64,000 bases of DNA, taken from SAR202 cluster bacterium. Its GTDB lineage: Bacteria; Chloroflexota; Dehalococcoidia; Lucifugimonadales; VGZR01. Positions 10,696-58,645 of the stretch are shown piece after piece. Numbering within the stretch: position 1 is the stretch's first letter; each line of letters starts with the position of its first letter. The position numbers were made by a program, and so were the translations under genes. The notes below the pieces were generated by a model. That model was not told where the DNA came from and made no database searches. It worked only from the letters and a program-made list of their open reading frames with translations. Where the stretch lies: contig VGZR01000005.1 of the NCBI GenBank assembly GCA_016872515.1, positions 1 to 64,000 on the forward strand, given 5' to 3'.

Positions 10696-10797
10696 AACAC
10701 GGCGGCGCATCCTCCCTCACCCCTTTGTCCCGACTGGGTCGGGATAAAGGCCCTCTCCCGCCTGCCGCGGGGGAGGGGTAAGGGCGCCCGCCGTGTT
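10696..10797. repeat. Cloverleaf-like intergenic palindromic repeat
   Basis: Outer stem AACACGGCGG/CCGCCGTGTT; inner hairpins TCCCGAC-TGG-GTCGGGA and CCCTCTCCCGC...GCGGGGGAGGGG. Confidence 0.65.
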
Positions 10798-38900: not shown

Positions 38901-38968
38901 TGGGCTCTCCCACCCCCACCTTTGATTCCTCCCCCCCAAGGGGGAGGAGGGATATCAAGAGGAGCCCA
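38901..38968. repeat. Structured G/C-rich palindromic repeat between purF and purM
   Basis: Outer TGGGCTC/GAGCCCA stem enclosing CCTCCCC...GGGGAGG hairpin. Confidence 0.6.
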
Positions 38969-53234: not shown

Positions 53235-53254
53235 CCTCCCCCCAAGGGGGGAGG
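53235..53254. repeat. C/G-rich palindromic repeat upstream of ffh
   Basis: CCTCCCCCC-AA-GGGGGGAGG followed by ...AAGTGGGGGTGAAGC as in other family copies. Confidence 0.6.
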
Positions 53255-53314
53255 ATTGAAGTGGGGGTGAAGCATCCGAAGCGCCAGCCGCTGTACAATC
53301 ATCCATAACCCACC

Positions 53315-54646: not shown

Positions 54647-54746
54647 GGGGGCTTCGCTTCTGCACCGAGAATGACTCTACCGACCAACGATGCTACAAGA
54701 GCCACCAGAAAGCCCTTCAGTCTAAGATTGCCAGACCTCACTATGT

Positions 54747-54797
54747 GTTTCTCGCTTTCTCGCTGTAGCACATGAGCACAGCGAGAAAGCGAGAAAC
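54747..54797. repeat. Perfect 20-bp inverted repeat GTTTCTCGCTTTCTCGCTGT / ACAGCGAGAAAGCGAGAAAC
   Basis: Arms 54747-54766 and 54778-54797, 11-nt loop; partial third copy CAGCGAGAAAGCAAGAA at 54929-54945. Confidence 0.85.
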
Positions 54798-54947
54798 GAA
54801 ATCTTTCCTGCTCTGAATGCGAGAGACCCTCCCTCTTGAGGCCATTGCTTACAGCGAGCATATAGGGCTTCGTACAGCCGTTCATGGTCTAAGAACGATT
54901 GTTGCTGTGGTCGCTTTAAGACCTAGGCGCAGCGAGAAAGCAAGAAT

Positions 54948-54963
54948 CCATGAGACGTCTCAT
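54948..54963. repeat. Perfect 16-bp palindrome CATGAGACGTCTCATG
   Basis: Read directly; overlaps the end of the decayed primase gene. Confidence 0.7.
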
Positions 54964-56296
54964 GCGAGTGCGGTCTGTAGCACTGCCTCACGGCTGTAGC
55001 GATACGGGTCGCCGCGTCCCCCAGCTCCTGTGCGCGTGATCCGGCCGCTGCGAATCATCTCTCGAAGGGAGCGTGACACCAGCATGTTATCCCCATCCAC
55101 GGTTTCCCAAAGTTCCCCCTCCGTCATCGGGCCTGTCTTCAGGGCATCGAGGATCTTGTTCTCGGTCGAGGCCTGCTGGACGGCCTCGAGGGTGCCGCCG
55201 AGGGCGATGCGCCGGGTGGCCGCTTAGAAGGTGATGACGGTCTTGGGGAACCAGTCACCGTAGCGCTGCTGGGTCTCGAGGGTGCGGTCCCCCTCGTGCT
55301 TGCGCAGCGTCAGGATGGTGTCCACGCCGCCGATCAGGGCCGTCGAGCCGATGACCGCGTCGGGGCCCTCGCGGTTGCCCTTGCCCTCGTGGTGCACGGT
55401 GAGGATGTGGCAGCCGGTCTGGCGGGCCAGGTCCATCAGCGGGTCGAGGGCGCTGTTGACCTGGGTGTAGTCGTTGACGTCGCCCAGGCGCACCATGCGC
55501 AGGAGCGGGTCTGCGATGGCGAGGACGGCTCAGGTGTGCATGATGGCGGCCCGGAGCGCGATGAGGGCGTCGCGCGGGGCCATGCCGACGTGGATGTGGA
55601 TGACCTCGGAGCCGTCGGCGCCCAGCGCCCGCAGGTGACTCTCGACCTCGCTGCGCTTCTCCTCAAGGCCGAGGTAGACGACCGGCCCCTGGTGCGTGGC
55701 GCGGCCCAGGAACGGCTCGCCTCGCGAGACGGCCAGCGCCAGGTTGCGGGCGAAGGTGGACTTGCCGACCTTCGGCTTGGCCGCCAGCACCGACAGCCCG
55801 CCCCACGGCATCATGCCCTCCCACAACCAGCGCGCCTCCTCGTGCGGCTCCGACATCAGCTCGGCCAGCGTCTGGAGCCTTTACCGGGGGGAGGAACCTC
55901 CTGGATTGACGAGGGGGCCGCGTAATTTCCTCCCCCTCGATGCGGAAGGACTAAGGTGGGGGTGAAGCGGTCTGCAGGGTACTGTTCACTTTCATCCCCA
56001 ACCTTCTCCTCTCGAGGGGGAAGGGATGCCCTACCACTCACCAGGGCCAACGGAGCACGCGGCGACCGCGGCCGCAGCCCGCGCTCCCGCAGCACGCCCA
56101 TGACCGTGAACTGGCCGAAACCTTACTGGCAACGGACCTTTGCCCCGTCGCCGTCTGCGATAGACTCGATGCTCAGCATGGGTCTTCCCTCCACGACCAG
56201 GTGCGCCGGTAGGTGCTTGTCCCCGTTGGTGTCCTGACACCGGCAGTCCGGCCTCCCGCACTTCAACGCCTCGCGGATACGAGTCACCATATCCAT
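54959..56296 (-). pseudogene. Decayed primase/RepA-like AAA ATPase (mobile-element replication protein)
   Basis: Zn/CHC2-like N-term CGRPDCRCQ...PAHLVVEGRPMLSIESIADGDGAKVRCQ*; ATPase GGLSVLAAKPKVGKSTFARNLALAV; HILTVHHEGKGNREGPDAVIGSTALIGGVDT; winged-helix-like tail. Stops at 56123-56125, 55530-55532, 55224-55226. Confidence 0.7.
55887..56040. repeat. G/C-rich structured repeat copy interrupting the primase pseudogene
   Basis: CCTCCCCCTCGATGCGGAAGGACTAAGGTGGGGGTGAAGCG and an inverted CCTTCCCCCTCGAGAGGAGAAGGTTGGGGATGAA. Confidence 0.55.
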
Positions 56297-56390
56297 CCCT
56301 GAGCACCTCCCGTAGCTCGTCTGTTCTATAGCCTACGGTACGCCCTACCGGCGATCTTGGCAAGGGGTGTTCCAGAAAGGGAAGGGGTGA

Positions 56391-56561
56391 CTCCTTCCTC
56401 CTCCCTTGAGGGGGAGGACCTCTGAGCCGGCCAGGCTGGCTCAGAGAGGTAGGGGGTACGTGCCGAGGGAGAGTAGATTGCGGTAGAGGCGGCCAAGCCG
56501 ATGGGAGAGCCACCCCCTATCCTTTGGCCCCGATGCCGTTGGGACCAAGGCCTTCCCCCTC
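56391..56561. repeat. Two-arm structured repeat, copy downstream of the transketolase genes
   Basis: CTCCCTTGAGGGGGAGGAC-CTCTGAGCCGGCCAGGCTGGCTCAGAG-AGGTAGGGGGT ... CCACCCCCTATCC...AAGGCCTTCCCCCTCAA. Confidence 0.75.
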
Positions 56562-56582
56562 AAAACAAAAATGGGGGCAGAG

Positions 56583-57545
56583 CTACCCCTTCTTCCGCCC
56601 CACGGCCCGCTGCACGGCCGTTGCGATGTCGTTGGGGGTGAGGTGGTACTTCTCCAGCAGGAGCTGGGGCGCGCCGGACTCGGCGTAGCCGGTCAGGCCA
56701 ACGCACTCGACGGGCGTGGGCCGCTTGCGTGCCAGCAGGCTGGCGACCATGCTGCCCAGGCCGCCGTCCAGCAGGTGCTCCTCCGCCGTGACGATGGCCC
56801 CCGTCTCTTGTGCCGCCTTGAGCACCGCCTGCTCGTCCAGCGGCTTGACGGTCGCCATGTTCAGCACACGGCAATGGACGCCGCCCTCGGCCAGCTTGGC
56901 CGCCGCCTTGAGCGCCGCGTCCACCATGATGCCGCAGGCGATGATGGCCACGTCCTTGCCCTGGCGCATCTCCTCGGCGACGCCGAGACGGAAGCGGAAC
57001 TCGGGCTTGTGGACGACGGGTGTGGCCGAGCGGGAGAGCCGGACGAAGAACGGGCCAGGCGTCTCCACCGCGGCGGCAGCAGCCTGCTCGGCCTCGGGCC
57101 CGTCGGCGGGCACGATGACCTTGAACGTCGGCAGCGCGCTGATGATGGCGACGTCCTCGATGCTCTGCGCCGAGACGCCGTCCTCGCCCGTGACGATGCC
57201 GCTGTGGGTCAGGAACAGCTTCACATTGAGGTTCGGCTGGGCGACGCCGACGCGGAGCTGGTCGTAGGGCCTGCCCGTCCCGAAGACCGAGAACGTGCTC
57301 ACCACCGCGACCTTGCCCGACGAGGCCATGCCCGCCGCGACGTTGACGATGTTCTGCTCGGCGGGGCCGAAGTCGAAGAACCGGTCGGGGAACTCCTTGC
57401 CGAACATGTTGGCGTACGTGGACTTGTTCAGGTCGCCGCCCAGGACCACCAGGTTCGAGTGGCGCTTGCCCAGCTCGACGAGCGCCTTGCCGACGACCTC
57501 GCGCGTGGACGCGGTGGGGGCGACGGTGTTCGCGGTCGTGGTCAT
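56583..57545 (-). CDS. Transketolase, C-terminal subunit
   Basis: LVELGKRHSNLVVLGGDLNKSTYANMFGKEFPDRFFDFGPAEQNIVNVAAGMASSGKVAVVSTFSVF. Confidence 0.93.
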   Translation of the reverse strand: MTTTANTVAPTASTREVVGKALVELGKRHSNLVVLGGDLNKSTYANMFGKEFPDRFFDFGPAEQNIVNVAAGMASSGKVAVVSTFSVFGTGRPYDQLRVGVAQPNLNVKLFLTHSGIVTGEDGVSAQSIEDVAIISALPTFKVIVPADGPEAEQAAAAAVETPGPFFVRLSRSATPVVHKPEFRFRLGVAEEMRQGKDVAIIACGIMVDAALKAAAKLAEGGVHCRVLNMATVKPLDEQAVLKAAQETGAIVTAEEHLLDGGLGSMVASLLARKRPTPVECVGLTGYAESGAPQLLLEKYHLTPNDIATAVQRAVGRKKG

Positions 57546-58354
57546 GCCAGCTCCTTGAGGGCCTGCTCCAGCTCCTGCTTGTTAGGGGCCTTGCCGTGGA
57601 AGTCGGGGTTGTTCTCCATGAAGCTGACGCCCTTGCCCTTCACCGTCTCGGCGATGATGACGGACGGCTGCCCCTTGGTGCGGACGGCCTGCTCCAGGGC
57701 ATCCACCACCTGGCCCATGTCGTGGCCGTTGGCCTTGACGACGTGCCACCCGAAGGCGCGCCACTTGTCGGCCAGCGGCTCCAGGTTCATCACCTGCCAG
57801 GTGAAGCGGTCGTTCTGGATGCCGTTGCGGTCCACGATGGCGGTGAGGTTGTCCACGCCGTGGTGCTTGGCGGCCATGGCGGCCTCCCAGACCTGGCCCT
57901 CATCGCACTCGCCGTCGCCGAGGAGGACGTACGTGTGCGTCGGGCGGCGGTCGAGCCGCGCGGCCAGGGCGGTGCCCAGCCCGAAGGACAGCCCCTGGCC
58001 CAGCGAGCCGCCCGACATCTCCACGCCCGGCGTCTTGATGTGGGCGTGGCCCTGAAGGCGGCTGTTGATCTTGCGGAAGGTCATCAGCTCCTCCTCCGGG
58101 AAGTAGCCGGAGGACGCGAGGGCGGCGTAGAGCACGGGGCAGGCGTGGGCCTTGCTTAGCACGAACCGGTCGCGGTCGGGCCACGCCGGCTCGGCGGGCC
58201 TGTGCCGCATGACGCGGAAGTAGAGCGCGGTCAGGATGTCCGTGGCGGACAGGGAACCGCCCGGGTGGCCGCTGCCGCCCGCGGCGACCATCGTCACGAT
58301 CTGGCGGCGTAGCTTCTTGGCCGTGGCCTCTAGCTCTTGGATGGTTACAGTCAT
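57542..58354 (-). CDS. Transketolase, N-terminal (thiamine diphosphate-binding) subunit
   Basis: GGSGHPGGSLSATDILTALYF, LSKAHACPVLYAAL, GGSLGQGLSFGLG, LLGDGECDEGQVWEAAM. Start refined from 58489. Confidence 0.93.
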   Translation of the reverse strand: MTVTIQELEATAKKLRRQIVTMVAAGGSGHPGGSLSATDILTALYFRVMRHRPAEPAWPDRDRFVLSKAHACPVLYAALASSGYFPEEELMTFRKINSRLQGHAHIKTPGVEMSGGSLGQGLSFGLGTALAARLDRRPTHTYVLLGDGECDEGQVWEAAMAAKHHGVDNLTAIVDRNGIQNDRFTWQVMNLEPLADKWRAFGWHVVKANGHDMGQVVDALEQAVRTKGQPSVIIAETVKGKGVSFMENNPDFHGKAPNKQELEQALKELA

Positions 58355-58440
58355 GTCCTCGCTGCCTGGTCTGACTTGGAGATATAACGAGGCATTATAT
58401 CCACCGCCTGTGGCCACTGCCAGTAGCGGATGCAGGGGTG

Positions 58441-58645
58441 GCTGATGCCCTCCTCCCCCCTTGAGGGGGAGGACCTCTGAGCCGACCAAGTCGGCTCAGA
58501 GAGGTAGGGGGTGCATCGCCAAGGAGTGTTGGCGGCGGTAGAGACAGCCAGACGGTGGGGAGAGCCACCCCCTATCCCTTGGCCGCGTCCCGACGCGTCC
58601 AAGGCCTTCCCCCTCAAGGGGGGAAGGAGGATGCGATGCCCCTAC
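58441..58645. repeat. Two-arm structured repeat, copy upstream of the transketolase genes
   Basis: CTCCTCCCCCCTTGAGGGGGAGG ... CTCTGAGCCGACCAAGTCGGCTCAGAG ... CCACCCCCTATCCC ... CCCCCTCAAGGGGGGAAGGAGG inverted ends. Confidence 0.8.

Follow-up and report, generated by a model that had tools for sequence, protein, structure and literature searches.

Two repeat copies at positions 56391 and 58441 of the window (the whole stretch of 64,000 nucleotides that was analysed) raise the question of what kind of element would keep such an elaborate structure. In the initial annotation these copies were described as a two-arm structure with a compensatory change in one hairpin. Both copies were found in the window sequence as described, together with the change itself: in CTCTGAGCCGAC-CAA-GTCGGCTCAGAG versus CTCTGAGCCGGC-CAG-GCTGGCTCAGAG, an A-T pair is replaced by G-C and the neighbouring G-C pair by G-T. 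Analysis of the window showed that each "arm" is a separate unit and that both "two-arm" copies consist of a pair of units in inverted, tail-to-tail arrangement. The three parts of a unit are a pyrimidine/purine stem-loop, a second hairpin whose sequence varies and a G-rich box. The arms of stem-loop 1 are pyrimidine on the left and purine on the right (TCCTCCCCC..GGGGGAGGA or CCTTCCCCC..GGGGGAAGG), and the box of the window units is AGGTAGGGGGT or GGATAGGGGGT. Judging from the sequences, each unit can probably be grouped with the BoxC / PIT / TM-ECO repeats as an intrastrand triplex element of class II (purine-motif), spread mostly by replication- and recombination-coupled copying. The covariance model, built from 31 units, placed the unit borders at 56397-56458 (+) and 56511-56580 (-) in copy 1 and at 58452-58513 (+) and 58566-58626 (-) in copy 2. 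The features of the family in the window are the following:

10711-10778, - strand: lone hairpin-bearing unit between divergent genes (covariance model)
38910-38948, - strand: short unit with a loop 2 of ~5 nt (covariance model)
53235-53270, + strand: short unit (covariance model)
55929-56023: short degraded pair, unit 55929-55965 (+) and inverted partner 55993-56023 (-) (covariance model)
56396-56418, + strand: copy 1 unit A, stem-loop 1, TCCTCCTCC-CTTGA-GGGGGAGGA, with one mismatch
56420-56446, + strand: copy 1 unit A, loop-2 hairpin, CTCTGAGCCGGC-CAG-GCTGGCTCAGAG
56447-56457, + strand: copy 1 unit A, putative third-strand box AGGTAGGGGGT, which mirrors the purine arm GGGGGAGGA
56458-56510: copy 1 spacer with inverted units on either side, 52 nt between model hits
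56511-56580, - strand: copy 1 unit B (inverted)
56512-56522, - strand: copy 1 unit B, putative third-strand box GGATAGGGGGT
56521-56550, - strand: copy 1 unit B, loop-2 hairpin
56551-56559, - strand: copy 1 unit B, purine arm GGGGGAAGG; the outer pyrimidine arm is degraded (outer head, 56551-56580)
58451-58473, + strand: copy 2 unit A, stem-loop 1, TCCTCCCCC-CTTGA-GGGGGAGGA
58475-58501, + strand: copy 2 unit A, loop-2 hairpin, CTCTGAGCCGAC-CAA-GTCGGCTCAGAG
58502-58512, + strand: copy 2 unit A, putative third-strand box AGGTAGGGGGT
58513-58565: copy 2 spacer with inverted units on either side, 52 nt between model hits
58566-58627, - strand: copy 2 unit B (inverted)
58567-58577, - strand: copy 2 unit B, putative third-strand box GGATAGGGGGT
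58577-58604, - strand: copy 2 unit B, loop-2 hairpin
58605-58627, - strand: copy 2 unit B, stem-loop 1, CCTTCCCCC..GGGGGAAGG

Simpler copies had been proposed at 10696, 38901, 53235 and 55887. The first three correspond to the units at 10711-10778, 38910-38948 and 53235-53270, and the fourth position was wrong, the real site being 55929-55965. All four copies (10711, 38910, 53235 and 55929) are members of the family, and several of them have a few nucleotides in place of the second hairpin. The lengths of loop 2 fall in two clusters, 3-5 nt and 24-36 nt. Within region 54647-58641 of the window, the two double units flank a transketolase N/C gene pair, and small ATPase-like ORFs are also present; short repeats of the GCGAGAAAGCGAGAA type are located directly downstream of ffh (54752-54946).

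A search of the own genome (2.28 Mb, 94% complete) with the covariance model revealed 147 matches at E<0.01, at ~145 separate places. The pattern CCCCCTTGAGGGGGA, with up to two mismatches, gave 95 + 88 matches in the genome versus 2 + 1 for the reversed pattern; this abundance is far beyond chance. At 44 of the ~145 places, the unit adjoins another one in tandem, head to head or tail to tail. According to a simple gene caller that overextends gene starts, 102 of 123 units are located outside called genes, and by the same caller their orientation to genes is mixed (same strand 43, opposite 27, convergent 15, divergent 11). The units are strongly clustered, with 19 in 34 kb of contig C19 and ~20 in 39 kb of contig C1 (190-229 kb).

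The second hairpin was found to covary strongly. In the 31-unit alignment, both sides were changed in 10 of 12 second-hairpin pairs, and the covariation score of the whole structure was 0.398, compared with 0.167 after shuffling and 0.10-0.18 for slid registers, which bears out the proposal that the structure is conserved. Among 99 distinct second hairpins from the genome regions sampled, 94.9% of positions were paired between the own arms versus 57.2% when arms were swapped between units. Mismatches were more often G.T than A.C (26 versus 10, p 0.011, counting hairpins from other phyla as well), which hints weakly that the G-rich strand may be the one that folds. The pairing may be maintained by selection, or imperfect palindromes may be corrected from a template.

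It is established that template switching occurs at quasi-palindromes. This process could have produced the hairpin covariation by mutation, if imperfect palindromes were made perfect at the replication fork and the fragility of loop 2 let new palindromes enter there. We regard this account as unlikely, though deserving serious attention, since it agrees with near-perfect pairing (95%) in sequences that vary freely and would be compatible with a triplex reading of the whole unit.

The tandem pair of strong hairpins could also point to an element acting at the RNA level (a 3' UTR stabiliser, a terminator or a small RNA, with selection on RNA hairpins), and the G.T excess fits a single-stranded fold of the G-rich strand as RNA just as it does as DNA. 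However, the mixed orientation to genes argues against such a role. No Rfam family matched the repeat above the gathering score, two tRNAs being the only matches in the window, which speaks against the small RNA suggested earlier. The hairpins are followed by the G-rich box and no T run was found after them, so the unit is not an intrinsic terminator. In addition, PMC4666352 cites purine-motif triplexes as not forming in RNA and the PIT elements of E. coli as having neither promoter nor terminator activity. An RNA-level function is therefore considered very improbable.

The G-rich box turned out to hold a relation to the first stem that the initial annotation had missed. Read in mirror order, the box reproduces the purine arm of the stem in the same unit, A being faced by T or A. 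Thus, GGGGGAGGA occurs with AGGT(A)GGGGG, GGGGGAAGG with GGAT(A)GGGGG and GGGAGAGG with GGTGAGGG. In the own genome, where tails were located by the hairpin end and blind to type, the tails fitted their own head type at 7.35 of 8 mirror triads versus 6.87 after permutation, a value that 0 of 10,000 permutations reached. An earlier mirror test, run on every purine/pyrimidine stem of either strand, gave a noisy result, as each head is palindromic and was counted once in the wrong orientation. The fit of tail to head was z 7.2 for mirror triads, z 4.4 for direct order and z -1.9 for antiparallel Watson-Crick pairing; Watson-Crick pairing between tail and pyrimidine arm was ruled out on this basis. 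The boxes AGGTAGGGGGT and ACCCCCTATCC can indeed pair between arms, as had been pointed out. As the reason for the box, this pairing was rejected: 2 of 22 neighbouring unit pairs are placed tail to tail, and since most units have no such partner, pairing between two arms is not what keeps the box.

A model-free test was performed on 250 same-order genomes, in which the heads were fixed and GGGGG was the sole constraint on the tails; the matches listed were mostly de-duplicated by hand. Among these, the end base of the purine arm agreed with the mirrored tail base in 110 of 120 classified matches (A/A 52, G/G 58; disagreeing 8 and 2; Fisher 1.7e-22, not tree-corrected). The tail base that mirrors R position 7 was G for G in 81 of 90 listed matches and A for A in 28 of 32, and the one that mirrors the constant A at R position 6 was T in 107 of 122 and T or A in 119 of 122. 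These are counts of units and not of independent events, because the units are related and their subtypes inherited. Within the 12 genomes that hold both head kinds, 47 of 53 units agreed versus a permuted mean of 29.2 (reached by 0 of 200,000 shuffles), a comparison that lessens the effect of kinship without removing it. Three units of the TAGGGGG form in the Chloroflexi groundwater genome G029 follow the mirror rule on inspection. Two observations count against the triplex reading: in type D units one A remains opposite G, and hairpin-bearing A units have an extra A in the tail (AGGTAGGGG), which makes one triad mismatch. On sequence grounds, the mirror relation obeys the rule for antiparallel purine triplexes, and it would not be expected from duplication or base pairing. 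The mutational account leaves this third-strand covariation without an explanation, since template switching at palindromes should not yield it.

The layout of the units (Y stem, loop, R stem, loop and a mirror third strand matched by G.GC, A.AT and T.AT triads) is that of the BoxC / PIT / TM-ECO elements, in which, according to PMC4666352, a pyrimidine stem, a loop, a purine stem and a second loop are followed by a purine third strand in mirror order. The same source gives the TM-ECO consensus as CCCTCNCCC N3-6 GGGNGAGGG N3 GGGNGAGGG and describes these elements as intergenic, with raised local variability and no linked transposase; the copies in E. coli are often inverted pairs of unlike types. 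Like these elements as described there, the present family is multi-copy, mostly intergenic and GC-rich, has no clear gene association and no linked transposase, and may occupy variable loci. The inverted pairs also correspond, with types A+B in E. coli and AGGT-type + GGAT-type units in the window. In contrast to the described elements, several purine-pattern subtypes occur here, each with a matching third strand, and the hairpin form is found in Chloroflexota and other phyla. The loop 2 of short units is ~3 nt long. The hairpin units of the window depart from the strict TM-ECO consensus with its 3-nt loop 2, as their loop 2 is a variable hairpin of 26-31 nt and their purine pattern is different, so that they are built like TM-ECO without being strict TM-ECO.

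What is new is the loop-2 hairpin, which takes the place of ~3 nt in known elements. The available text of PMC4666352 and PMC2267715 on BoxC and intrastrand triplexes describes no loop-2 hairpin, and nothing relevant to the sequences of the hairpin units was found in the open-access literature. The ITxF survey, as presented in PMC4666352, allowed loops of 1-6 nt and could not list the hairpin-capped form, which may have been overlooked for this reason. Surveys with short loops thus undercount intrastrand triplex elements.

The proposed fold would arise when the G-rich strand is single-stranded. The pyrimidine arm 1 and the purine arm 2 would form the stem, and the 3' G-rich box would return into its major groove as an antiparallel third strand, with G on G-C and A or T on A-T. 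The second hairpin (~26-31 nt) would stand at the junction as the turn that brings the third strand back, as a 3-nt loop does. Insertions between the stem and the third strand would be tolerated when they are hairpins, because a hairpin could hold the third strand close to the junction. According to PMC4666352, the E. coli motif yields a stable triplex in vitro, and DMS footprinting gave no sign of a stable one in vivo. With many natural variants whose third strand follows its own stem by the triplex code, even across an inserted hairpin, the formation of intrastrand DNA triplexes in cells becomes testable on natural sequences and exact mutants.

An unbiased scan covered the genomes of 84,980 species and looked for TM heads and tails separated by any 18-34 nt. 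Among the matches listed, the hairpin build was found in Bradyrhizobium (most matches), Microvirga, Thermoguttaceae and other Planctomycetota, as well as in Delta- and Betaproteobacteria, Acidobacteria and Chloroflexi. In 63 of 69 distinct middles among the listed matches from several phyla, the middle folded better than 95% of its own dinucleotide shuffles. In the own phylum, a similar pattern was matched in 67 of 400 genomes, with no reversed control among the matches listed. Several unrelated hairpins fill loop 2 in different lineages of this phylum, which indicates that the loop was filled by hairpins repeatedly; other arrangements, e.g., two overlapping units, were also found. Unrelated palindromes at the same point in several lineages, other dispersed ones included, are likewise what the mutational account would predict. 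One such dispersed palindrome, GCCTGTCCTGAGC..GAAGG, is located within the loop of some units in several lineages (L003, L022, L041, L043 and the own-phylum listings).

It is conceivable, and we put it forward tentatively, that the hairpin-capped intrastrand triplex is general in bacteria. The three-way covariation, that is, of both stem-1 arms with the third strand in addition to a freely varying second stem, would then be evolutionary evidence of DNA triplexes that form in living cells and are kept or generated there. The hairpin-capped units also offer a way into the study of repeats that reshape intergenic regions across many phyla.

The high copy number, the palindromic and intergenic nature and the inverted pairs of the units recall REP, BIME and REPIN elements with RAYT, which are short palindromic dispersed repeats, single or in inverted pairs (PMC3733652, PMC2817692, PMC3116915). 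The units could accordingly be REP/BIME-like repeats mobilised by an IS200/IS605-type (Y1) transposase, with the hairpins as recognition structures, and the presence of the unit within a MITE-like repeat in some relatives (G029) fits such mobilisation. However, the association with a REP-associated transposase proposed in the initial annotation was not borne out: Y1_Tnp (PF01797) is absent from the own genome at 94% completeness and was found in 5 of 59 relatives, most unit-rich genomes (G005, G029, G042, G049, G050) being without it, and copy number did not follow it across these relatives. GTAG is absent from the 5' base of the palindrome and occurs solely on the 3' side of the hairpin, where one subtype has it in its tail, so the GTAG-tag arrangement of REP elements is missing. 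REP elements also differ from these three-part units with a mirror box, and the mirror rule of the tail would be left unexplained. Mobilisation by a Y1 transposase is thus considered quite unlikely. MITEs resemble the family as non-autonomous dispersed repeats, and some G029 copies lie within a MITE-like repeat, but no terminal inverted repeats with target duplications were seen for the units in the own genome. The MITE-like repeats of G029 are near-identical, ~180 bp long and have TTACTAA..TTAGTAA-type ends (L094-L099, L107, L188); one copy carries a wholly different loop-2 hairpin, GTCCCGATGCCATCGGGAC.

The dynamics of the units were followed at loci shared with relatives. The same-genus genome G001 contains few units, and those listed are short. 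The gap between dpep and ffh is 58 bp long without a unit in G001 versus 181 bp here with the unit 53235-53270, and the segment 54.65-58.64 kb, including the transketolase pair, is missing between ffh and the peptidase gene in G001. At one orthologous Bradyrhizobium locus with shared flanks, different species were found to have two hairpin units (5), a plain and a hairpin unit (4) or a hairpin and a plain unit (1); elsewhere the locus is reduced to one head or to a hairpin by itself, or contains remnants together with other repeats. Since these variants share their flanks, units are exchanged, reduced and lost as blocks. A raised variability of loci may be reflected in this strongly remodelled Bradyrhizobium locus and in the window segment missing in G001. 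No insertion with target duplication was found at the G001 and Bradyrhizobium loci, where no relative near enough gave an exact empty site.

The exchange of entire units at an orthologous locus would also suit the mutational account. In the triplex reading, the fold would arise transiently on single-stranded DNA at replication and could stall or divert the polymerase, which would lead to the arm exchange, duplication and deletion observed. We infer that the family spread mainly as a selfish or neutral repeat through replication- and recombination-coupled copying, probably with no dedicated transposase. Where the Bradyrhizobium locus (L242-L271) lacks the triplex pair, the palindromic repeat GTCATGCCCGGGCTTGTCCCGGGCATCCACG is often present in the gap, beside a hairpin remnant.
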